From: Chloroflexota bacterium
GTDB lineage: Bacteria > Chloroflexota > Dehalococcoidia > Lucifugimonadales > UBA1127
NCBI GenBank assembly: GCA_026713825.1
Contig: JAPONS010000016.1
Span: forward strand, 1-56,496
Length of the DNA: 56,496 nt
Reading direction: 5' to 3'
This document shows positions 8,638 through 22,829 of this stretch, one piece after another. Every line of letters begins with the position of its first letter. Position 1 is the first letter of the stretch. A model generated the notes under the pieces. It did not search any database. It was not told the DNA's origin and saw only the letters and a program-made list of their open reading frames with translations. Position numbers and translations under genes: made by a program.

Positions 8638-9087
8638 ATGGACAGGATTCCACTCGCAGGGAAGATCGCCATCGCCGTATTCGCGCTGGCTGCTGCCGTT
8701 GCCGTCATCGTCGTGGTCGTGCTCGTCTCAAATGACACGATCGGCGAGAACTGGGGGCTGGGGCTCTTCTCGGTCTTCGCGATACTGGGCGGCATCGGCT
8801 TCATCACCGACGCGTTCAAGCGGGAGGGCGCGCCCAAGGCGTTCCTTGCGGTCGTGTTCAAGTTCGCGTCGCTGGGGTTGACGCTGGGGCTCATCGCCGG
8901 CGACTGGGGCGAGTACTGGTGGCAACTCACCATCGGCGGGCTGCTCGTGGGCATCGTCGTCGCGCTGGTGGAAGGCCGGATTCGGACGGGTGATGCGCCT
9001 CCTCGCGTGTTCCGGCTGGTCGTGTGGAACCTTGTGGGCGTGGCTGCCATCGGCGAGGGCGTGTACAAGCTGACGACGCTCCTGTAA
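8638..9087 (+). CDS. Four- to five-helix membrane protein, tandem paralogue 1
   Basis: A 149-residue integral membrane protein with hydrophobic segments at about 8-30, 41-57, 68-86, 95-111 and 122-147. It shares the order and wording of the next gene: VSND/VSNG, FAILxGxGF, DAFxxEGxP, FTLGLIxG, GDAPxRxxRLxVW and AxGEGxY. This marks a tandem duplication with much later drift. The family is unknown to me. An AUG follows GGGGGAAGCGAACACC, with the site somewhat distant. Confidence 0.75.
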   Translation: MDRIPLAGKIAIAVFALAAAVAVIVVVVLVSNDTIGENWGLGLFSVFAILGGIGFITDAFKREGAPKAFLAVVFKFASLGLTLGLIAGDWGEYWWQLTIGGLLVGIVVALVEGRIRTGDAPPRVFRLVVWNLVGVAAIGEGVYKLTTLL

Positions 9088-9173
9088 CGCCGGACTGCCG
9101 ATAGCATCGCAGGAGCGGGCCGCGCTGCTGCTGAGCGAGAAGCAAGGCGATGCCGCGCCTGCAGGGAGGAAGC

Positions 9174-9629
9174 GTGCCCGCGGTAGCTGGATTGCCCGTC
9201 AGCGGCAGGAATGCCGTTGTAGTCATTGCCCTGGCGATGATTGTCGTGGTCATTGCGATGATTGTCCTGGTCTCCAATGGGGCCGTTGAAGAGCAGGCAG
9301 CCAGAAACTTCTTCGCGTTGTTCGCCATTCTCTTTGGGGCCGGCTTTGTCAGGGACGCGTTCCGGGGTGAAGGCGGGCCGCAGGGCGTCCGCTCGGTGAC
9401 GCTCAAGTTCACGACGCTGGCATTCACGCTGGGGCTCATCGTGGGCGGGTGGACGGCGAACTGGCTGCTGCTCACCGCCAGCGGGGTGGCCGCGGGCATC
9501 CTGTTTTCCGTTGTCGAGAGGCTCATCATCGGGGGCGACGCCCCGAACCGCGCGCTACGGCTGGCGGTCTGGATTCCTGTTGGGCTGGCCGCGATGGGAG
9601 AGGGCGCGTACATCATCGCGCCACTGTAG
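9174..9629 (+). CDS. Membrane protein, tandem paralogue 2
   Basis: A 151-residue membrane protein with the same five-segment plan as the gene before it (RNAVVVIALAMIVVVIAMIVLV, then FFALFAILFGAGFVRDAF, FTTLAFTLGLIVGGW, GVAAGILFSVVERLI and VWIPVGLAAMGEGAYII). The GTG at 9174 follows GGGAGGAAGC at the right distance, so I prefer it to the upstream ATG at 9150. Neither copy shows a catalytic motif or a charged pore residue pattern. The pair could act as a two-subunit membrane complex, which is only a guess from tandem position. Confidence 0.72.
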   Translation: MPAVAGLPVSGRNAVVVIALAMIVVVIAMIVLVSNGAVEEQAARNFFALFAILFGAGFVRDAFRGEGGPQGVRSVTLKFTTLAFTLGLIVGGWTANWLLLTASGVAAGILFSVVERLIIGGDAPNRALRLAVWIPVGLAAMGEGAYIIAPL

Positions 9630-9708
9630 TCTCCGAGACGGTCGAACTCCTCTAACGCCGCAATCGCATCCCTTCCATTCTCCTCGCATTTGCTGCAATC
9701 TGTGGCCG

Positions 9709-10593
9709 ATGGAACGCACCCCACAAGGCACGGCAGCCGTAGCGGTCATCGTGGACAGCACGTCGTCATTGACGGCTGCGCACATTGGCGACCTGCCGAT
9801 TGAGGTTGTCCCGATGCAGGTGAGCGTTGGCGGGCGGAACTACCTGGACGGCGTCGACATCACAGCGGAGGAGTTCTACCGCCTGATCAGGGACGACAGC
9901 GTCCCGGCGCAGACGGCCGCGCCCCCGCCTGCGGCCTTCGAGGACGCGTTCCAGCGCGCTTTTGCCGCCGGTCGAGACGTGCTCTGCATTACGACCACCT
10001 CGAAGTTGAGCGCGACGTACAGCATCGCGACGGCCGCGCTGGAGTTCACGTTGGCGTCATTTCCTGAGCGCCGGGGCGTCGTGATTGACAGCGCGACTGC
10101 GGGAGGCGCGGAGGCGCTCGTGGCGCTGGCGGCTGCGCGACTGGCGGCCGACAGCGCGAGGCTCGAGGCGGTGGAAGAGGTCGCGAGGAGTATCGTCGGG
10201 CGGGTGTACTTCATCGGCATCCTGGAGTCGTTGCGGCGGCTGCAGTTCGGCGGGCGCGTGCCTCGGGCGGCCATGTGGGCGGCGTCGCTGCTGAACATCA
10301 AGCCGATCCTGGGCATCTGGCCGGGCGAGGGCGAGGTCCGGATGGTGGCGCGGCCCCGCACAAGGGCAAGGGCCATCGAGAGGGTGCTGGACACCATGGC
10401 CGAGGAGACCGGCGGGAGGCCGGTGCGCGTGGTGGTCATGCACGCTGCCGCCGCGGAGGACGCCGAGGAGATACACCGCCGGATCTCGGAGCGGTTCGAG
10501 TGCAGGGAGAGCCTCATCGTGCCGTTCACGCCGGTCATCGGCGCGCATACGGGGCCGGGCCTGCTGGGCGTAGCCTTCTACGCGGAGGAGTAG
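9709..10593 (+). CDS. DegV family fatty-acid-binding protein
   Basis: A 294-residue DegV-fold protein. The fatty-acid pocket marks are VIVDSTSSL (14-22), the early block LPIEVVPMQVSVGGRNYLDGVDI, ITTTSKLSATY, the central GILESLRRLQFGGR and the end HTGPGLLGVAFY. Family members bind a fatty acid and hand it to kinases such as FakA in Gram-positive bacteria; no fakA is in view. The ATG at 9709 has no ribosome site. CAATCT ends 7 bases before it, so a leaderless start is possible but weak. fabF follows, consistent with a lipid role. Confidence 0.88.
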   Translation: MERTPQGTAAVAVIVDSTSSLTAAHIGDLPIEVVPMQVSVGGRNYLDGVDITAEEFYRLIRDDSVPAQTAAPPPAAFEDAFQRAFAAGRDVLCITTTSKLSATYSIATAALEFTLASFPERRGVVIDSATAGGAEALVALAAARLAADSARLEAVEEVARSIVGRVYFIGILESLRRLQFGGRVPRAAMWAASLLNIKPILGIWPGEGEVRMVARPRTRARAIERVLDTMAEETGGRPVRVVVMHAAAAEDAEEIHRRISERFECRESLIVPFTPVIGAHTGPGLLGVAFYAEE

Positions 10594-10661
10594 GCCTGCT
10601 CCCATTGCGTCGTTATCAAGAGAACGGGTTTTGGCTTGTTCCGTCGCCCATCCCACCCTGA

Positions 10662-10667
10662 TATAAT
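10662..10667 (+). promoter_or_regulatory. Candidate -10 box upstream of fabF
   Basis: TATAAT at 10662-10667 lies about 100 bases before the fabF start. The only -35-like match is TTGTTC at 10637-10642 with a long 19-base spacer, so the call is modest. Confidence 0.4.
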
Positions 10668-10768
10668 CGCAGCGACGGCCACAGCCGCCGGACTGCGCCA
10701 GCAGGCAATACAGGGGGGCCTGTCGAGGCCAATGAACGCATCAGCGCAACGCTGGTAAGGAGCGATTC

Positions 10769-12013
10769 GTGACGGACGCGAGAATAGTGGTGACAGGGAT
10801 AGGCGTGGTCAGCCCCATCGGCCTGACGGCGGACGCGACGTGGGAGTCGCTGGTTGCGGGGAAGTCGGGCGTCGGGCGCATCAGCGCTTTTGACCCGGAG
10901 GGGTTTGAGACGACGATTGCCGCGGAGATCCCTGAGTTTGACCCGACGAACTACATGGACCGCAAGGAAGCCCGCCGAGCCGACCGGTTCTCGCAGTTTG
11001 CGCTTGCCGCGGCGCGGGAGGCGCTGGGGCAGGCGGACCTGCTGCGCGAGGAGCCGCTGGGCGACCGGGTGTCGTCGCTCATCGCGAGCGGCGTGGGCGG
11101 CATCATCACGCTGTCCGAGCAGTACGACGTGCTGCGGGAGAAGGGCCCGAAGCGCATCAGCCCGTTCCTTGTCCCCATGATGCTGGTGGACATGGCGGGC
11201 GGCAACGTCTCGATCACCTACGGCGCGCGCGGACCCAGCTTCGCCACGGTGTCCGCATGCGCCAGTGGCGCGGACGCCATCGGCATGGGCATGGACCTCA
11301 TCCGCAAGGGCGACATCGACGTGGCCATCTGCGGCGGCTCCGAGGCGCCCATCTGCCCCATTGCCGTAGCGGGCTTCAACTCGGCGGGCGCGCTCTCGCG
11401 GAACAACGAGGTGCCTGAGGCGGCCTCGCGCCCCTTCGACGCGCAGCGCGACGGCTTCATCATCGGCGAGGGCGGGGCGGTCCTCATCATCGAGCGGCTG
11501 GAGCACGCGCTGGCGCGCGGCGCGCGGCCGATCGTCGAGCTTGGGGGCTACGGCGTCACCTCGGACGCGTCGCACATCACGCAGCCGGCGCCCTTCGGCG
11601 AGGGCGGCGCGCGGGCGATGCGGCAGGCCATCGCGGGGGCGGGCCTCAAGCCGGAGGACGTCGACTACATCAACGCCCACGGCACATCGACGCCCATCAA
11701 CGACAAGGCGGAGACGGACGCCGTCAAGTCCGTCTGGGGTGAGGACGCACACAAGGTGGCGATCAGCTCGTCCAAGTCGATGACGGGGCACCTGCTGGGG
11801 GCCGCGGGCGCCATCGAGTCGGCGATCTGCGTGATGGCGATCGAACGCGGCGCCATCCCGCCCACCATCAATCTGACCAACCCGGACCCGGAGTGCGACC
11901 TGGACTACACGCCGCACAACGCCCGGATGACGAAGGTGGACGTGGCCATGACCAACTCCCTGGGGTTTGGCGGCCACAACACCTCACTGCTCTTCCATCG
12001 GTTCGAAGCGTAG
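10769..12013 (+). CDS. fabF: Beta-ketoacyl-ACP synthase II
   Basis: A 414-residue condensing enzyme that extends acyl-ACP with malonyl-ACP in fatty acid synthesis. The catalytic triad is visible: Cys164 in SACASGADAIG, His304 in NAHGTSTPINDKAE and His341 in SSKSMTGHLLGAAGA, with Lys336. It begins RIVVTGIGVVSPIG and ends NSLGFGGHNTSLLF, both typical of FabF. The GTG start follows AAGGAG. Length matches the family. recJ follows after 14 bases, so the two are likely co-transcribed. Confidence 0.96.
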   Translation: MTDARIVVTGIGVVSPIGLTADATWESLVAGKSGVGRISAFDPEGFETTIAAEIPEFDPTNYMDRKEARRADRFSQFALAAAREALGQADLLREEPLGDRVSSLIASGVGGIITLSEQYDVLREKGPKRISPFLVPMMLVDMAGGNVSITYGARGPSFATVSACASGADAIGMGMDLIRKGDIDVAICGGSEAPICPIAVAGFNSAGALSRNNEVPEAASRPFDAQRDGFIIGEGGAVLIIERLEHALARGARPIVELGGYGVTSDASHITQPAPFGEGGARAMRQAIAGAGLKPEDVDYINAHGTSTPINDKAETDAVKSVWGEDAHKVAISSSKSMTGHLLGAAGAIESAICVMAIERGAIPPTINLTNPDPECDLDYTPHNARMTKVDVAMTNSLGFGGHNTSLLFHRFEA

Positions 12014-12027
12014 CCGGGCCGCCCCGA

Positions 12028-13728
12028 ATGGCGGGTGACTCACTACCGCCCCGCCCCAGATGGGCGCTTGCACCCCGCGTGCCCGACGAGGCCGTTGAGG
12101 CGCTGCGGCTGCCCCGGCTGTGGGCGCAGCTCCTCTACAACCGGGGCATCGAGACGCGCGACATGGCGTGGGAGCTCCTGCACGCCTCAGAGGACGCGCT
12201 GCACGACCCGTTCCTCTTCTCCGAGATGGATGCCGCCGTCGACCGCGTGATGTTGGCGGTGACTGAGGGGGAGACGATCGCCATCTTCGGCGACTTCGAC
12301 ACGGACGGCGTCACGGCGTCCGTGCTGCTGTACGAATCGCTGCTCGCGGCAGGAGGGGACGCATTCGTCCACCTGCCGCACCGGGTGCGCGACGGGCACG
12401 GGCTGAACGCCGAGGCGGTGACGGCCATCGCGGAACAAGGCGCGTCGCTCATCATCACCGTCGACTGCGGCATCACCTCTGGCGAGGAGGTGCGGCTGGC
12501 CAAAGGCCTCGACATGGACGTCATCCTGACGGATCACCACGCGCCCATAGGGACGCCGCCCGAGGCGTTCGCCATGGTCACGCCCACGGAGGCCTACCCC
12601 TTCCCGTTCCTCACGGGCGCTGGGCTGGCGTTCAAGCTGGTGCAGGCCATCCACAGCCGGATGGAGACGCCCGTGCCCGCCGGCGCGCTGGAGCTTGCAT
12701 CTCTGGGCACGGTTGCGGACATGGCCCCTCTGCTCGGCGAGAACCGGGCGATAGCGACGCTGGGGCTGGAGCGACTGCGCGAGACGGAGCGGCCCGGCCT
12801 GCTGGCGCTGCTTGCGTCGGCGGGCGTGTCGCGGGAGACGCTGGACCACGAGTCGATCCCGTTCATCATCGCGCCGCGCCTCAACGCCGCCGGGCGCATG
12901 GACAGCCCCGACCTTGCCTTCAGCCTGCTGACGGAGGAGGACCCGTCCGCCGCGCAGGAGCTGGCGTCGCGCATCGAGATGCTCAACCGCGAGCGGCGGG
13001 CGCTCACGCAGGAGCTGCTGGACGAGGGGATGCGGCTGGCGGGGCCGCAGGTGGCGGATGGCGAGCGGCTCCTGTTCCTCGCGGGCGAGCAGTTCAACCC
13101 CGGCGTCAGCGGGCTCGTGGCCGGCCGGCTTGTCGAGCGATTCTCGCGACCCGCCATTGTGGTAGCTATCGACGGTGACATTGCCCGCGCGAGCGGGCGC
13201 AGCATCGCGGACTTTCACCTCGCCAACGCGCTCGCGGAATGCGGCGAGCGCTTCCTGCATTTCGGCGGGCACCCGGCTGCGGCCGGGTTTGTGGCGCGGA
13301 CGGATGACCTCGACGCCATCCGCGCGTCGTTGCAGGCGCTCGCGCGGGAGCGGCTCCACGACGCGACGCTGGAGCCGACGCTGCGCGTGGACGCCGAGGC
13401 AAGCTTCGCCGAGATGCCGGGGCAGACGATGGGCTTCCTCCAACGGCTGGCCCCGTTCGGGCAGGAAAACCCGCCGCCAGCGTTCCTCGCAAGGGAGGTC
13501 GCGGTGACCGGCGTGCGCCGGATGGGCAGCGAGGGACAACACATGCGGCTGCAGCTTCGACAAGACGGCACGACGTGGGAGGCCGTCGCGTTCAACCAGT
13601 CGTGGCCGGAGGACTTCGACGAGCGGGGGGCGATTGACGTGGTGTATACGCCCGAGAGCAACACATTCAACGGGCGCACACGGCTGCAGATGCGGGTGGT
13701 GGACTTGCGGGCGGCGGGGGACGGCTAG
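12028..13728 (+). CDS. recJ: Single-stranded-DNA-specific exonuclease
   Basis: A 566-residue DHH-family 5'-3' exonuclease for recombination and mismatch repair. Motif I reads GDFDTDGVTAS (88-98) with Asp89, Asp91 and Asp93, motif II has Asp146 in TVDCGI, motif III is DHH at 169-171 and motif IV SLGTVADMAPL. The DHHA1 part has APRLNAAGRMD and GGHPAAAGF, and a C-terminal OB-like domain follows. Thr replaces the more usual Val in DxDxDG, a minor change. The ATG at 12028 has no clear ribosome site but gives the usual N-terminus; the frame upstream overlaps fabF. Confidence 0.94.
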   Translation: MAGDSLPPRPRWALAPRVPDEAVEALRLPRLWAQLLYNRGIETRDMAWELLHASEDALHDPFLFSEMDAAVDRVMLAVTEGETIAIFGDFDTDGVTASVLLYESLLAAGGDAFVHLPHRVRDGHGLNAEAVTAIAEQGASLIITVDCGITSGEEVRLAKGLDMDVILTDHHAPIGTPPEAFAMVTPTEAYPFPFLTGAGLAFKLVQAIHSRMETPVPAGALELASLGTVADMAPLLGENRAIATLGLERLRETERPGLLALLASAGVSRETLDHESIPFIIAPRLNAAGRMDSPDLAFSLLTEEDPSAAQELASRIEMLNRERRALTQELLDEGMRLAGPQVADGERLLFLAGEQFNPGVSGLVAGRLVERFSRPAIVVAIDGDIARASGRSIADFHLANALAECGERFLHFGGHPAAAGFVARTDDLDAIRASLQALARERLHDATLEPTLRVDAEASFAEMPGQTMGFLQRLAPFGQENPPPAFLAREVAVTGVRRMGSEGQHMRLQLRQDGTTWEAVAFNQSWPEDFDERGAIDVVYTPESNTFNGRTRLQMRVVDLRAAGDG

Positions 13729-13998: not shown

Positions 13999-16164
13999 CT
14001 AAGCGCTGCTTCCACTGCCGCGCTGGTCTGACACACGCAGCCCTCCGTAATCCAGGGCGGGATACTGAGACGCAGACCCGAAGTCCCACGGATCGTCGCC
14101 AGTGCCGTCGCCGTCCAGGTCCACGTTCCAATCGGCGTAGATGCCGGTGTAACCGGTGGGCGACTGCAACTCGCTGGTGGTCTTGCCCATTCCGCCGTTG
14201 CTGGTAGACAGACCGGATGTCTGCGTGTCCCAGTAACTGGCCGTTGCGGTCCCAGCGTCTAGTCCGATTACGGTGTCGTCTCCAACCAGCCCGCCCAGGG
14301 CGCCGCCCCGGTAAAGGCGAGAAACCGCCCCTGTTGCATAGCTTGCACTGATGGTTCCACTGTTAACACCCACCAGACCGCCGATCTCTTGATTGCCGGA
14401 TACCGTCCCCCCTGCATAGCTTGCACTGATGGTTCCACTGTTAACACCCACCAGACCGCCGACGGAAGTTATATGGCCAGTGGGCTCCCCGCTGCGAAAC
14501 ACCTCCCCTGTTGCATAGCTGGCAGTGATGCTCCCATCGTTTTCACCCACCAGACCGCCGATGCTTCTGGTGCCGGATACCGTCCCCGTTCCGTAGCTGC
14601 CAGTGATGATCCCCCCGTTAGCGTTACCACCCACCAGACCGCCGATGCTCCTGGCGCCGGATACCGTCCCCGTTGCGTAGCTGCCAGTGATGATCCCCCC
14701 GTTACCGTTACCGCCCACCAGACCGCCGATGCCGCTGCCGCCGGATACCGCCCCTGTTGCATAGCTGGCACTGATGGTTCCACTGTTACCACCCACCAGA
14801 CCGCCGATCGCTACACTGCCGGATACCGTCCCCCCTGCATAGCTTGCGCTGATGGTTCCTCTATTACGACCCACCAGACCGCCGAAGGAAGTTTTATGGC
14901 CAGCGGGCTCTCCGCTGCGAAACACCTCCCCTGTTGCATAGCTGGCAGTGATGCTCCCATCGTTTTCACCCACCAGACCGCCGATCATTTCATTGCCGGA
15001 CACCATTCCCGTTGCGTGGCTTTCAGTGATGGTTCCACTGTTATCGCCCACCAGACCGCCGATCAAATAATTGCCGGATACCGTCCCCGTTGCGTAACTG
15101 CCAATGATGGTCCCTACATTGAATTTCTGACCCACCAGACCGCCGATCGAGTTATTGCCGGACACCATCCCCGTCGCATAGCTGTTAGTGATGGTTCCCC
15201 CATTGTCCCTACCCACCAGTCCACCAACCATGAACTCACTGCCGTGTGTTTCTACTTCGGCATGGCTGGCGCTTATCGTCCCTGCGTTCCACCCTACCAG
15301 TCCGCCGATCCAGCGAGCACCGGACACCGTCCCCGTTGCATAGCTGGCAGTGATGATCCCACCGTTAGAACCGACCAACCCGCCAACGAACTCTCCACCG
15401 ATGATCCTGACCCCGGTCAGCGCCACATTACGTATCACGCCCGTGTCGTCCACACTGCCGAACAGCCCAACATAAGCGGTCGCCGGTCTGTTGATGAACA
15501 GGCCAGAGACGGTGTTGTCGTTCCCCTCGAACGTGGCGGTGAACTCCGCTCGCCCAACATTGACAGGCTGCCAGCCCTCGCCCGTGTTGTACGGAGCGAC
15601 GTCCAGGTCTATGCCGGACGTCAACTCGTAGCCGGTGCAATCTAAGGACGGGCACCCCATGCCAGTTGCCGCGTTCGGGAACGCCGAGGAATAGTCCGAC
15701 GCGTTCGCGGAAGCGGGTGCGCCATCGCCGTCCAGGTCCCAGCGGATGGCATTCAACTGCGCCGCACTCGATACCTCGATCAGGCCGTCGTCGTCAGCGT
15801 CGTAGTCGGTGCCCGGCACCGCTGTGGGGGTGGGCGTGGGCGCAGGAGTGGGCGTAGGTACAGGCGTGGGGGTGGCCGTGGGCGCAGGAGTGGGCATCGG
15901 CGTGGGGACGGTCGTGGGCGCGGGGGCGGGCATCGGCGTGGGGACGGTCGTGGGCGCAGGGGCGGTCGTAGACGCAGGGGTGGGCATCGGCGTGGGGGCG
16001 GCCGTGGGCGCGGGGGCTGGAACTTGAGTGGACGGCGCTGTTCCCTCAAGTCCAAGCTCATCAGTGCATGCAGCCAGAGACGCGGAGCCAAGCGCCACCA
16101 ACAGACCAAATGCCAGGATCCAGCGAATCCCCTCCCGCAGACTGTGCGGCACAAAGAACGCCAT
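13999..16164 (-). CDS. GLUG-repeat surface lipoprotein
   Basis: A 721-residue exported lipoprotein. The N-terminus (signal peptide, lipobox Cys33 in GSASLAAC) is nearly identical to the next gene. A PT-rich linker of about 75 residues (APTPMPTPAPT type) leads to a DYDADDDGLIEVSSAAQLNAI block, with a Ca-binding-like DxDxDG, and then 14 GLUG-type repeats with core GGLVGxNxGTIxxSYATGxVSG. The C-terminus has YWDTQTSG and DLDGDGTGDDPWDFG. Such proteins are beta-helix-like surface or adhesion proteins. A 74-base stretch is exactly repeated inside the gene (14489-14562 and 14912-14985). The GTG just before the ATG is an alternative start. Confidence 0.9.
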   Translation of the reverse strand: MAFFVPHSLREGIRWILAFGLLVALGSASLAACTDELGLEGTAPSTQVPAPAPTAAPTPMPTPASTTAPAPTTVPTPMPAPAPTTVPTPMPTPAPTATPTPVPTPTPAPTPTPTAVPGTDYDADDDGLIEVSSAAQLNAIRWDLDGDGAPASANASDYSSAFPNAATGMGCPSLDCTGYELTSGIDLDVAPYNTGEGWQPVNVGRAEFTATFEGNDNTVSGLFINRPATAYVGLFGSVDDTGVIRNVALTGVRIIGGEFVGGLVGSNGGIITASYATGTVSGARWIGGLVGWNAGTISASHAEVETHGSEFMVGGLVGRDNGGTITNSYATGMVSGNNSIGGLVGQKFNVGTIIGSYATGTVSGNYLIGGLVGDNSGTITESHATGMVSGNEMIGGLVGENDGSITASYATGEVFRSGEPAGHKTSFGGLVGRNRGTISASYAGGTVSGSVAIGGLVGGNSGTISASYATGAVSGGSGIGGLVGGNGNGGIITGSYATGTVSGARSIGGLVGGNANGGIITGSYGTGTVSGTRSIGGLVGENDGSITASYATGEVFRSGEPTGHITSVGGLVGVNSGTISASYAGGTVSGNQEIGGLVGVNSGTISASYATGAVSRLYRGGALGGLVGDDTVIGLDAGTATASYWDTQTSGLSTSNGGMGKTTSELQSPTGYTGIYADWNVDLDGDGTGDDPWDFGSASQYPALDYGGLRVSDQRGSGSSA
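14489..14562. repeat. Exact 74-base internal direct repeat, copy 1
   Basis: Identical to 14912-14985 inside the GLUG gene. It codes for the repeat ending in FRSGEP and the preceding GGLVGENDGSITASYATG. The exact identity at silent positions points to a recent duplication or gene conversion. Confidence 0.9.
14912..14985. repeat. Exact 74-base internal direct repeat, copy 2
   Basis: Second copy of 14489-14562, separated by 349 bases. Flanking bases on both sides are similar but diverged. Confidence 0.9.
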
Positions 16165-16264
16165 CACCTCACCATCCCCTTCTTTACTGTCCGAATAGTC
16201 TCTTCTATCGCGCTATCGCCGACTTGAAGGCGAGGGGTACTTGATGTTCAGTTTGCAGCCCCCT

Positions 16265-16315: not shown

Positions 16316-18334
16316 TCACAATCTCCCAATCTCGTACGAGGCTTCGGCGATCTTCTGGTCTCCCAAGTACGCGTACACCCAATACCGGCCCTCCGGCCCT
16401 CCGCTGGCGTAACTGCCCAATCTAAACCGTTGTGCGTACCTGTCTCCCGACACGCGTTCCACATGCGATACATGGCCTTCCAAACTGAAGCTGAGTCTTT
16501 CGCCCTCATAGTGCCTGGGGTTGAAATTGAACCCATCCCCCTCAAAATACTGGATGATGGTCAACGGCAGTATGTGCGTGCACAGAGACTCGTGCTGACA
16601 GGAGTACTCTATGTTGAAATCCAAGCGGTTGCCAGGATAGGCCTTGGCGGTTATCGGGCGCGGACCGTCACTGACCCAAGCTCGCTCTATATGGCTGTGC
16701 ATGAACGCGATGACCGGGTCCGGCGCAGATGTGTCCTGATGGCTGGTGTCAAACGGTTCGCTCCCGTCGTACCAGCGGGCAATCACTTTCTCCACCGCGG
16801 CCACCGTATCCGCAGAGACGTCCGCCGTGAACGCTGCCCTGACGTGGCAAATGCCGAGGTTGGTGCCATCGCATCCGTCGTTGGGGTCGTCGTATTCGGA
16901 CAGCAAGTATAGCTGCCGGAAGGCCATCCTGAATGCGGTCTCATCCATGTTCCGGTAGAGATCGTGGAACAGCCGCTCCCCAAATCGGTAATCGCAGTCC
17001 CCCTCGACATCTTCGGCGATATAGCGGGCGGATGGGCACGGCTGCCGCTCCATGGCAATCGGCCACCCTGTTGCCCTGGATTCAATGACGGTTTCCAAGA
17101 ACGTGGCCGCCCCCTCCGTTATCCAGTTTGCGGAATTGCCTCTCCAATAGTAATGAGATGCTTCGTGTATGAAGTGGCGGAAGGGACTCTTTATCGTTGA
17201 GGCAACGTCGTAATACTCGGGGACAGTCACCACGTGGGTTCCGAAGTTCGATCCATTGGCGCCGGGGCGCACCGCTCTTTCAAACAGCCAGATCACCTGC
17301 GATTTCGGGAAGGGGAACGACATGAAGTTCTCGATGGCCAGCACGGCGTCCTCCAGCAAGTCCATATTGCGTTCCATGCCAGGTTTGGTGCGAATCATTG
17401 TGAGGTCCACGTCCCCGGCCAGAGGCAAGAAGACGGTCCGCTCCTCCAGCATCACCCGGTCCGGGTCAAGCAGAACGTCTATGAGTGGCGGGTTGTATCG
17501 CGCGGCGCTGCTGAGGACGACGAATATCTTTCCCTCATCGTCAGTGATGCCGTCGGCGATGGTAGGATGGGCTATCACCGTGTCCAAAAGCTCCGTGTTC
17601 GCCTGAGCCAACGGTGCAAGGAGCCTCAGGGCGTCGCCGCCGATGTCAAAGAGTTTGTCCAACGTATCCCGTTCATGATAGGCCAACCACGCGATTGCAT
17701 TCATGGCATTCACCGAGAGCCTGTCATTGCCTTCCAAAACCCATGGTTCCTGCAATAGATCAAAGAAGACGTCATCGAAGTAGAGCGCCAGATAGATCAA
17801 TACTTCTACGCCCTCTACTTCCCTGCTGCTGAGGCCATCCTTGACCCAGGGCAGATCCCTGATCATCCTCTCAATGTCGTCATTCAACTGATCGGCCCTG
17901 GGATAAGAGGACCAATCCGTCGTCTCCTCAGCGCTTGCTGTTGGAGGCGGCGGTAGAACGGGCCAAGGTTCGGGTGTGGGAGTGGGTGTGGGCGTAGGTA
18001 CAGGCGTCGGGGTGGCCGTGGGCGCGGGGGTGGGTGTGGCCGTAGGCGCAGGCACCGGCGTGGGCGTGAGGGCGATCGTGGGTACAGGTGTGGGGGCGAT
18101 CGTGGGCGCAGGGGTGGGCATCGGCGTGGGGGCGGCCGTGGGCGCAGGGGTGGGCATCGGCGCGGGGGCGGTCGTGGGCGCAGGGGCTGGAACTTGAGTA
18201 GACGGCGCTGTTCCCTCAAGTCCAGGCTCATCAGTGCATGCGGCCAGAGACGCGGAGCCAAGCGCCGCCAACAGACCAAATGCCAGGATCCAGCGAATCC
18301 CCTCCCGCAGACTGTGCGGCACAAAGAACGCCAT
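16316..18334 (-). CDS. Zinc metallopeptidase-like surface lipoprotein (HEXXH)
   Basis: A 672-residue exported lipoprotein with lipobox Cys33 and a PT-rich linker of about 80 residues. A helical region (about 145-300) contains LPWVKDGLSSREVEGVEVL and similar segments, a repeat type I know from Chloroflexota surface proteins. The catalytic part has HFIHEASHYYW with HEASH at 390-394 and Glu407 in WITEGAATFLE, fitting a gluzincin zinc site. The last 120 residues (YPGNRLDFNIEYSC onward) look like a beta-sandwich. It likely degrades protein or peptides at the cell surface. It lies directly after acs, and the leader is shared with the GLUG gene. Confidence 0.85.
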   Translation of the reverse strand: MAFFVPHSLREGIRWILAFGLLAALGSASLAACTDEPGLEGTAPSTQVPAPAPTTAPAPMPTPAPTAAPTPMPTPAPTIAPTPVPTIALTPTPVPAPTATPTPAPTATPTPVPTPTPTPTPEPWPVLPPPPTASAEETTDWSSYPRADQLNDDIERMIRDLPWVKDGLSSREVEGVEVLIYLALYFDDVFFDLLQEPWVLEGNDRLSVNAMNAIAWLAYHERDTLDKLFDIGGDALRLLAPLAQANTELLDTVIAHPTIADGITDDEGKIFVVLSSAARYNPPLIDVLLDPDRVMLEERTVFLPLAGDVDLTMIRTKPGMERNMDLLEDAVLAIENFMSFPFPKSQVIWLFERAVRPGANGSNFGTHVVTVPEYYDVASTIKSPFRHFIHEASHYYWRGNSANWITEGAATFLETVIESRATGWPIAMERQPCPSARYIAEDVEGDCDYRFGERLFHDLYRNMDETAFRMAFRQLYLLSEYDDPNDGCDGTNLGICHVRAAFTADVSADTVAAVEKVIARWYDGSEPFDTSHQDTSAPDPVIAFMHSHIERAWVSDGPRPITAKAYPGNRLDFNIEYSCQHESLCTHILPLTIIQYFEGDGFNFNPRHYEGERLSFSLEGHVSHVERVSGDRYAQRFRLGSYASGGPEGRYWVYAYLGDQKIAEASYEIGRL

Positions 18335-18432
18335 CACCTCACCATCCCCTTCTTTACTGTCCGAATAGTCTCGTCTATCGCGCTATCGCCGACTTGAAGG
18401 CGAGGGGTACTTGATGTTCAGTTTGCAGCCCC

Positions 18433-20344: not shown

Positions 20345-20713
20345 CTACCCGTCGCCGTTGCGATCGATCAGGGCAAGCAGGTGGTGTACAAAGCGGTGGA
20401 CTCGCGGACGGTCAGTGGCGATCTCATAGTCTTCCATCTCATCGTGGTAGAAGTTCTTATGGAACTTCTCAGCAAGCCCGAACCCGCCAGGCAACGACTC
20501 ATCCTCGAATTCGTCCGCAAGCTGGTCTACGGCGAGCTTGAGGGCTCGGTGGGTGCGGCAGGGCCAGTTGCGCTGTACGGCAGCAGCCATGACGGCGTGC
20601 GTTGCTGCGCCCCAAAGCTTCTCTGAGGCTTGCAGCTTGTCGCCGTCAAGGAACTCACGGTCTGAGGCCGTCAGGAAGTCCCGCGCCGTCTGTTGGTGGT
20701 TTTCGTGCTCCAT
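20345..20713 (-). CDS. Helical HEPN/PaREP1-like protein
   Basis: A 122-residue, all-helical soluble protein. The segment LQASEKLWGAATHAVMAAAVQ (about 28-48) looks like the SEKxxGAxxHAV motif of PaREP1/HEPN-like domains, and an RNxxR-like stretch (QRNWPCRTHR, 47-56) is present, although not the canonical RX4-6H at a clear place. HEPN proteins are often RNases or nucleotide-pocket partners; none of this is proven here. It follows the fusion gene by only 13 bases, so both are likely one transcript and it may work with that enzyme. Confidence 0.7.
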   Translation of the reverse strand: MEHENHQQTARDFLTASDREFLDGDKLQASEKLWGAATHAVMAAAVQRNWPCRTHRALKLAVDQLADEFEDESLPGGFGLAEKFHKNFYHDEMEDYEIATDRPRVHRFVHHLLALIDRNGDG

Positions 20714-20726
20714 GCTGCTCCGTCCT

Positions 20727-22775
20727 CTACGCCTTTGGTTGGATGAGCACGCGGACCGTGCCGTCGCCCTCGTCGCGGCGGTTGATGAAGGTGTGGCCTT
20801 CCTTTTCCGACCAGAGCATGACGTCGAAGATGTTCAGGGCGTCGCCGAGGATGGCTTCCACCATGGAATGGTGGTCGGCCTCTGTCTGCTTGGCGAGGGC
20901 GGCGATGACGCCGGCGCAGGACTTGCCGCGGCCGTCGATGACGACCCAGCCGGCGCCCTGCGTGACGACCGGCGCGTGTCCGTTGCCGGGCACATACAGG
21001 TCCGGGCGGACGTTGATTGCGCCCGTCTTGCGCAGGTCGACCTGGCGCTTGAACTCGGCGACGGACTCCCATGCGACGGCGCGGCCGCGGTCGCCGCTGG
21101 CGCACACTGCGCCGCGCACGCCAACGATGTCGGGGTTGACGCGGGCCAGCTCGTCAAGGTCGTCCATCTTCAGGTGGCCGGAGAGGGCCGTGCTCATGCC
21201 GAGCTTCTTGCCCTCCAGCACGATGTCGCGGAGCTCCTCCTCGCTCAGGAAGTCGAAGAGGTTGCGGCCGTCCTTGATGAGCGTGTCGATGAGGAAGCCG
21301 TCGCACTCGCCGTCCTTGGCGAGCTGCACCATCAGGTGGGGGTCAAGTCCGCCCTCGTAGAGGAGGTTGTCGGCGAAGAGGGAGCCGACGAGCTTGGTGT
21401 TGTAGCCCTCCATCGCGCGGCGGGACTCTCGGAGCACCTCGACGGCCACGTCATAGTCGGCCTGCATGAAGCCGACCTTCACGGAGGTGGCGTCCATGAC
21501 GGCGGCGGCGTAGGCGGCCATTGCGACGGTGCCGGCCTGGTTGGGGACGACGCCGAGGGTCACGCTGACGTGGTTCTCCGGCTGGATCATCGCGCGCACC
21601 TGGCGGACGGTGTTCGGGTGGCCGGAGCCGACGAGCGCCTCCTGCAGGTTCTTCACGTCCACGACATCGGCGCCGCCACGCTCGGCCTCGAGGGCCTCGG
21701 CGACGTCCTGGACGCTGACCATGAGCAGCATGCCGGTGGCGAAGAAGGGGCTGTTGTTGCCGGTGAGCCACGCGGCCCTCGGCTGCACGGAGACTGCGGG
21801 CTGCGGGGGCCTCGGCTTGAGGGGCTCGAGCTCGGACTTGAGCTGGGCCTTCTCGGAGGCGGTGAGCTGCGGCAGGGGCTGGCGGGTCGGGCCGCCGGCC
21901 ATGCCCATGAGCTCGCCCCAGTACTTGACCATCGCGACGGGGAGCGCGCCGCCGTTCTTGTCCATGGTGCGCGTCCACCAGGTGTCGTTCAGCTCCTTGA
22001 GGCGGCGGAGGTGCTTCTCGTAGAAGGCGTCATCGTAGTCGCCGACGGACGCTTTCTCGATGAACTGGACGTAGTAGTTGCACTCCGGCGTGTCGAAGCG
22101 CCAGTCGGAGGTGTTGGCGAACATGACCTGCTGCTGGAAGCCTAGATCCTGCGCGAAGGGGTAGATCCACTCGTCGGGCGTGCTGATGACGTAGTCCTTG
22201 CCGAGCGAGAGGTGGGTCTCGATGGAGAGCTGCTGGTTGAAGCTGGCTTCCTTGACGCCGACGACCTGCTGCAGCTCGCAGATGCGGCGGAGGCCCTGCG
22301 GGCTCATGACGATGCCGAACTGCGGCGAGTTGTAGAACATGATGCCGAGGTTGGTGTTGTCGCTGAGGGTCTTGACGTAGTCGATGACCTGATCCTCGGT
22401 CTTGGCCTCCATGTAGGGGGCGGCGACGATGAGGAGGTCGAAGCCGGCATCCTCGGCGTGGCGGGCGAGGTCAAGGGGCTCGCGGGCCGAGGTGTGGGTG
22501 ACGTGCGCGCCGACAGGCCATCGGCCGGCGGCTTCCTCCGCGACGATGTCCATGACGCGGACGCGCTCGTCGTGGGTCAGGCTCCAGAACTCGCCCATGC
22601 CCCAGGTGCAGCCGGCGCCTCGCGTTCCGAGGCTGCGCACGTGGCGTACGTTGCGGCGCAAGCCGTCCTCGTCGAGGTCACCGTCGTCCGTGAAGGGCGT
22701 GATCAGCGTGCTCCACTGCCCCTTCAGCGTTTCCCATGCCCAGTCCTGTGCTTCATGCGCCTTGTAGTGCGCCAT
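20727..22775 (-). CDS. Three-domain fusion: DapA-like aldolase, MfnB-like furan synthase, TusA-like domain
   Basis: A 682-residue protein. Residues 15-310 form a DHDPS/N-acetylneuraminate-lyase barrel with Tyr148 (IMFYNSP) and Schiff-base Lys175 (VGVKEAS). Residues 348-580 match MfnB, (5-formylfuran-3-yl)methyl phosphate synthase: VSVQDVAEALEAERGGAD, then VDVKN with Asp373 and Lys375, VKVGF with Lys433, IDTLIKDG with Asp497 and Lys501, and VRGAVCASGDR. The spacing matches the catalytic residues known for the archaeal enzyme. Residues 610-682 (DGRGKSCAGVIAALAK, then DVMLWSEKEGH) resemble TusA, with Cys620 kept but the CPxP proline lost. The ATG at 22775 follows GGAGGGG. The product and pathway are unknown. 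Confidence 0.85.
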   Translation of the reverse strand: MAHYKAHEAQDWAWETLKGQWSTLITPFTDDGDLDEDGLRRNVRHVRSLGTRGAGCTWGMGEFWSLTHDERVRVMDIVAEEAAGRWPVGAHVTHTSAREPLDLARHAEDAGFDLLIVAAPYMEAKTEDQVIDYVKTLSDNTNLGIMFYNSPQFGIVMSPQGLRRICELQQVVGVKEASFNQQLSIETHLSLGKDYVISTPDEWIYPFAQDLGFQQQVMFANTSDWRFDTPECNYYVQFIEKASVGDYDDAFYEKHLRRLKELNDTWWTRTMDKNGGALPVAMVKYWGELMGMAGGPTRQPLPQLTASEKAQLKSELEPLKPRPPQPAVSVQPRAAWLTGNNSPFFATGMLLMVSVQDVAEALEAERGGADVVDVKNLQEALVGSGHPNTVRQVRAMIQPENHVSVTLGVVPNQAGTVAMAAYAAAVMDATSVKVGFMQADYDVAVEVLRESRRAMEGYNTKLVGSLFADNLLYEGGLDPHLMVQLAKDGECDGFLIDTLIKDGRNLFDFLSEEELRDIVLEGKKLGMSTALSGHLKMDDLDELARVNPDIVGVRGAVCASGDRGRAVAWESVAEFKRQVDLRKTGAINVRPDLYVPGNGHAPVVTQGAGWVVIDGRGKSCAGVIAALAKQTEADHHSMVEAILGDALNIFDVMLWSEKEGHTFINRRDEGDGTVRVLIQPKA

Positions 22776-22829
22776 TGTCCCCTCCGTCACACGGCTTGCC
22801 ACGCACGGGAGGTGCGTGGAGCTAGATTG

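Follow-up and report, generated by a model that had tools for sequence, protein, structure and literature searches.

The window analysed here, a stretch of 56,496 nucleotides from a SAR202 bacterium (Chloroflexota), encodes a protein in which a DapA-like aldolase domain, an MfnB domain and a TusA-fold domain are joined in one reading frame. The DapA-like part is obligately paired with the MfnB-TusA part, either as an adjacent gene or in a fusion. We propose that they constitute a SAR202-specific module in which two lysine-imine domains and a cysteine-bearing, carrier-like domain act on the same small-molecule intermediate, a reading on which our confidence is evenly balanced. All three domains are members of known superfamilies; the literature searched contains no description of their combination, of its strict co-inheritance or of the altered active site of MfnB. 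The module, which is built on an enzyme of methanogen cofactor synthesis and within the genomes sampled does not occur elsewhere in the phylum, would mark an undescribed small-molecule pathway. SAR202 bacteria account for 10-30% of deep-ocean plankton (PMC10444878). Knowledge of their metabolism comes mostly by inference from gene families. With cultured strains now available, and with domains of common fold for which simple candidate substrates can be named, the function of the module is directly testable.

The fusion gene and its start site

The fusion gene (20727-22775, minus strand; open reading frame list and Pfam) codes for 682 residues from an ATG start. The longer open reading frame (20727-22802, minus strand; 691 residues) has an in-frame GTG at 22802, upstream of the ATG. 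A Shine-Dalgarno-like GGAGG read in the sequence at 22781-22785 (minus strand) lies a few bases before the ATG at 22775, and we thus place the real start there, in agreement with the gene coordinates and length of the preliminary description; this position is also consistent with the relatives. Residues are numbered here in the 691-residue frame, and those of the preliminary description are 9 lower. The assembly carrying the window is 2.64 Mb, and the relatives of its host are named SAR202 or Dehalococcoidia.

The three-domain make-up read earlier from the sequence is upheld, with the DHDPS and 4HFCP_synth families identified by Pfam and the TusA-like domain by relatives and by its modelled fold; all of the residues singled out at that stage are present, and vary little or not at all among relatives. 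Dozens of genomes have three-domain frames, and the fusion is therefore real rather than an artefact of assembly. The model of the full-length protein has a pLDDT of 87.6 and a pTM of 0.54, such that the placement of the domains relative to one another is uncertain.

The DapA-like domain

The N-terminal domain (21825-22724, minus strand), assigned from Pfam, fold and profile alignments, belongs to the DHDPS/NAL superfamily of aldolases. Pfam DHDPS matches residues 27-326 (E 2.6e-32), and this part of the full-length model aligns with DHDPS structures at a Z of about 33. The Schiff-base lysine is Lys184 (Lys175 of the preliminary description; coordinates 22251-22253) and Tyr157 (formerly Tyr148) corresponds to Tyr133 of DHDPS. 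The specificity residues differ, as profile alignments to DHDPS chains place Gly68-Met69 at the position of the T44-T45 pair, Phe162 at R138 and, at a variable position, Met131 at Y107. With Gly-Met in place of the threonine pair and Phe162 in place of the arginine, the domain is not a dihydrodipicolinate synthase. The earlier proposal of a Schiff-base aldolase is thus borne out for the fold and for Lys184 and Tyr157 and, with T44, T45, Y107 and R138 replaced, does not extend to pyruvate aldolase activity. The domain has invariant motifs of its own, WGMGEFW and ANTSDWRFD.

The MfnB domain

The central domain (21051-21725, minus strand), defined by Pfam, fold and residue comparison, is similar to 4-HFC-P synthase. 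Pfam 4HFCP_synth (PF04476) matches residues 360-584 (E 4.1e-55) with 187.4 bits against a cut-off of 22.4, and the corresponding part of the full-length model aligns with MJ1099 at a Z of 34.9, with 37% identity over 233 residues. In MfnB the Schiff base forms on Lys27, and the essential residues include two lysines and two aspartates (PMC6604932). The catalytic residues D25, K27, K85, D151 and K155 of MJ1099 are all retained in 66 of 66 SAR202 copies, and in the window protein are D382, K384, K442, D506 and K510 (D373, K375, K433, D497 and K501 in the earlier numbering).

Eight other positions set the SAR202 copies apart from 15 other MfnBs, which come from an archaeon, Streptomyces and proteobacteria. 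Residues P29, G32, L34, A36, D61, M149, A186 and S188 of MJ1099 are invariant or nearly so in those 15, and are replaced in all 66 SAR202 copies by L, A, V, S, V, L, S and H, respectively (L386, A389, V391, S393, V418, L504, S541 and H543 in the window protein). In the model these eight residues sit on the catalytic face, either where a strand ends or within the loop that comes next, beside the catalytic residues. Retention of the five catalytic residues together with the fixed change at the eight positions around them suggests, as far as sequence comparison goes, that catalysis was kept while its surroundings were exchanged once and then frozen, with a changed substrate or product.

The foremost alternative is that the MfnB domain makes canonical 4-HFC-P from two molecules of glyceraldehyde-3-phosphate and that the DapA-like domain joins the furan aldehyde to pyruvate, yielding a furan metabolite other than methanofuran. 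Enzymes of the NAL superfamily do condense aromatic aldehydes with pyruvate, all five catalytic residues are in place, the fold is nearly identical to that of MJ1099, and Streptomyces plasmids have MfnB homologues in operons without methanofuran genes. However, the eight catalytic-face substitutions, including D61 to V and S188 to H, are fixed in the 66 SAR202 copies, the NCBIfam equivalog for (5-formylfuran-3-yl)methyl phosphate synthase scores the same 187.4 bits and falls well below its cut-off of 341, and the threonine pair with which the DHDPS family binds a carboxylate has become Gly-Met; we therefore regard this alternative as unlikely. Membership of the MfnB family and the full set of catalytic residues, both proposed from the sequence, are confirmed, and the furan phosphate product proposed with them is not, as the eight positions differ from all MfnBs compared.

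Methanofuran genes and other MfnB contexts

Among 60 related genomes none has a match to Fae (PF08714), to the formylmethanofuran:H4MPT formyltransferase FTR (PF01913) or to MfnF (TIGR03123), with methanogen controls positive for all three. A role of the module in the use of methanofuran or tetrahydromethanopterin is thereby ruled out, and the earlier suggestion of a pathway other than methanofuran biosynthesis is supported. Within the literature searched, SAR202 is linked neither with methanofuran nor with dihydrodipicolinate synthase.

Other bacterial MfnB genes have different surroundings. In methylotrophic proteobacteria, Orf22/MfnB belongs to an archaeal-like cluster for methylofuran (PMC8141765). 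On Azospirillum and Phyllobacterium plasmids MfnB is found together with the DUF447 and DUF6513 genes of this archaeal-like cluster, and on an Azospirillum plasmid it is near fhcD and the gene for formylmethanofuran dehydrogenase subunit C. On three Streptomyces plasmids (L114, L115 and L116; approximately 9001-13262) an MfnB homologue is the first gene of a conserved operon of four, in company with an aldehyde dehydrogenase, an alcohol dehydrogenase and a SAM methyltransferase, and no methanofuran genes lie beside it. This operon represents a second use of MfnB outside methanofuran synthesis, possibly for a furan metabolite or signal.

The TusA-like domain

The C-terminal domain (20739-20942, minus strand) has a TusA/SirA fold, assigned from the Pfam matches of relatives, the modelled fold and a DGxGKxCAG motif. 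In the window protein itself Pfam TusA matches residues 621-688 at an E of only 0.013, and its 15.8 bits are below the curated cut-off of 28.6. The same family is matched by 19 of 27 orthologues with a best E of 8.4e-6, and among the orthologue matches listed one clears the cut-off (G020, 28.8 bits). A model of the domain alone (pLDDT 92) has six best structural matches that are all of the TusA family, with Z from 12.2 to 10.3: SirA-like 3hz7 (Z 12.2, rmsd 1.8, 72 aligned residues), YeeD (11.9 and 11.8), E. coli TusA (11.2 and 10.9) and the TusA NMR structure 1dcj (10.3). The next fold is Alba, from Z 9.0. Together the orthologue matches and this ranking turn the weak call on the window protein into a firm one. 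A profile of the tail gave no match to PDB sequences at E 1, and a Foldseek comparison of its model with the pdb library gave nothing at E < 0.001.

The single cysteine, Cys629 (Cys620 of the preliminary description; coordinates 20916-20918), occupies the same place as in TusA, where helix 1 begins. It is invariant within the DGxGKxCAG motif, which is present in 66 of 66 copies. CPxP is a conserved motif of TusA-family proteins (PMC11073785), and occurs in the tail of none of the 66 copies. The presence of one cysteine and the lack of the CPxP proline, both remarked upon at the outset, thus hold in all 66 copies. Of the TusA-like carrier then envisaged, the fold and the cysteine remain; the loss of CPxP weakens a role in sulfur carriage.

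Distribution, linkage and fusion history

The genomes sampled are metagenome assemblies. MfnB is present in 36 of the 60 relatives and the DapA-like subfamily in exactly the same 36, and across the order the corresponding numbers are 101 and 99 of 201 genomes; the two MfnB copies not matched by a DapA-like gene (in G473 and G545) are at contig ends. Among 400 genomes spread over the Chloroflexota three have MfnB, all of them of this order, and the roughly 390 Chloroflexota genomes sampled outside the order yielded no copy. Occurrence outside the phylum was assessed from one genome scan with close-relative patterns together with plasmids, and distant cases may exist beyond that scope. No viral contig encodes a relative, and a viral origin of the module was rejected.

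The TusA-like tail is present on every intact MfnB copy in the order (frames of at least 327 residues), and in all of the 47 loci read the DapA-like part directly precedes MfnB-TusA, either separated by -8 to 205 bp or fused to it. The TusA-fold domain is thus always tied to MfnB, and its only connection to the DapA-like part is by way of MfnB. Such exact co-occurrence, with adjacency or fusion, substantiates the view that the three domains are one functional unit. Nearly all carriers have the module in single copy, and it is present in genomes as small as 1.2 to 1.5 Mb. In one genome (G531), the only such case seen, MfnB-TusA and the DapA-like gene are on separate contigs (C74 and C122), which could be a real separation.

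Across the order about 44 frames, counted as those of at least 650 residues, are full fusions, and beyond the fused clade the majority of genomes have the parts as neighbouring genes, DapA-like and then MfnB-TusA. In a maximum-likelihood tree of 66 copies all 31 fused copies are on one side of a branch with 100/99 support, which gives the three-domain fusion a single origin. Given one fused clade and a widespread two-gene form, the ancestral arrangement was most likely a two-gene unit, with the window carrying the derived fusion. One fused copy nested within the SAR202 clade (L005; JADFOJ010000064.1) is from an assembly labelled Planctomycetota, a bin that is probably mislabelled or contaminated.

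Gene neighbourhood

The two-gene form is situated in a conserved housekeeping block, with FakA, DegV and RecG upstream, a YtxH-like gene downstream, and PheA and Trk potassium genes on the opposite strand. No pathway link was found among these neighbours (RecG, FakA, DegV, PheA, Trk, YtxH), and no conserved organic-substrate transporter, dehydrogenase or regulator is beside the module. In the window, a PaREP1-family gene (20345-20713, minus strand; Pfam PaREP1 E 7.9e-14) is 13 nt downstream of the fusion gene and is followed by a gene for acetyl-CoA synthetase. The PaREP1 family is named as archaeal, a similar gene is clustered with the module in only one other locus, and as the gene does not accompany the module in other families, it is probably unrelated. 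Elsewhere in the window two neighbouring genes (13999-16167 and 16316-18337, both minus strand) encode large secreted proteins with a nearly identical signal and Pro/Thr/Ala-rich linker and with different C-terminal parts, one with SYATGTVSG..IGGLVG repeats and the other with a HEASHYY motif and the appearance of a metallopeptidase.

These surroundings bear on a second alternative, in which retro-aldol steps in the DapA-like and MfnB domains split a compound from dissolved organic matter, with the TusA-like domain serving only to stabilise the protein. Catabolic paralogues abound in SAR202 genomes, with aldolases of other families among them (PMC10444878), and both domains have reversible class I aldolase folds. 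Against this, the module is nearly always single-copy, its block is one of housekeeping genes that offers none of the three companions named above, and an invariant cysteine would be odd in a structural domain; a catabolic role appears improbable to us. Single-copy occurrence, strong conservation in genomes of this small size and housekeeping rather than catabolic surroundings indicate instead that the module is probably biosynthetic.

Proposed function

In the reading that we favour, both barrels would most likely work by imine formation at a lysine, on a single small intermediate, an aldehyde or keto compound, that stems from triose phosphate. The retained residues of the MfnB domain suggest that a Schiff base still forms between its Lys384 and an aldehyde of triose-phosphate type, and that the domain carries out elimination and aldol chemistry, with either a changed substrate or a changed product. 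The DapA-like domain, judged by its family and by Lys184 and Tyr157, would make or break a carbon-carbon bond next to the product or substrate of MfnB, probably with a ketoacid as its partner. Cys629 may hold the intermediate as a thiol adduct or deliver sulfur at the MfnB site, a role suggested by its invariance and the weakest step of the scheme; at a pTM of 0.54 its contact with that site is only hypothetical. Of the new pathway first envisaged, in which a furan-type phosphate, an aldolase product and a thiol or sulfur carrier meet in one protein, the single unit and its separation from methanofuran are supported, and the furan phosphate, the pyruvate aldolase and the sulfur carriage are hypothetical.

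A more specific version, to which we give little credence, is a sulfur-incorporating pathway. Here the MfnB domain would eliminate phosphate from a triose phosphate on Lys384, and the unsaturated imine left on the enzyme would take up sulfur or a thiol from Cys629 instead of undergoing the furan-forming aldol step; the thio-product would be extended by the DapA-like domain. If true, the outcome would be a new cofactor or metabolite that contains sulfur and is restricted to SAR202.

That MfnB-TusA replaces ThiG-ThiS in making the thiamin thiazole is highly improbable and largely refuted, for despite the formal likeness (a lysine-imine barrel with a sugar phosphate and a sulfur-carrier fold) and the lack of ThiG in 13 of 36 genomes with the module against 2 of 24 without, a weak figure that kinship of the genomes may explain, canonical ThiG is present in the other 23 of the 36, and 55 of 60 genomes lack ThiC, among them all of those without ThiG, which look like thiamin auxotrophs. 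As an observation in its own right, the order (genomes G000-G059) has ThiG in most genomes and ThiC in only 5 of 60, suggesting synthesis of the thiazole without that of the pyrimidine (HMP) and dependence on external HMP.

Comparison with known systems

The SAR202 protein is like MfnB, or 4-HFC-P synthase (MJ1099; UPF0264, PF04476), in fold and in all five catalytic residues, and unlike MJ1099 it has a TusA-fold C-terminal domain, an obligate DapA-like partner and eight changed positions on the catalytic face, in genomes that lack the methanofuran genes tested. Orf22/MfnB of methylotrophic proteobacteria is likewise a bacterial MfnB with the same catalytic residues (PMC8141765), but adjoins kinase, DUF447, DUF6513 and Fhc genes, whereas the SAR202 genomes are without any tested pathway gene. 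With aldolases of the DHDPS and N-acetylneuraminate lyase superfamily the DapA-like domain shares the fold, the Schiff-base lysine and the tyrosine, and it departs from DHDPS at T44, T45, Y107 and R138 and in the WGMGEFW and ANTSDWRFD motifs, which are the SAR202 protein's own. The C-terminal domain shares with TusA, YeeD and SirA-like carriers the fold and a lone N-terminal cysteine where helix 1 begins, and differs in having DGxGKxCAG in place of CPxP and in being always fused to MfnB. ThiG-ThiS also combines an imine-forming barrel with a sulfur-carrier protein; this likeness is in outline only, as the families are different and the SAR202 carriers mostly have ThiG as well.
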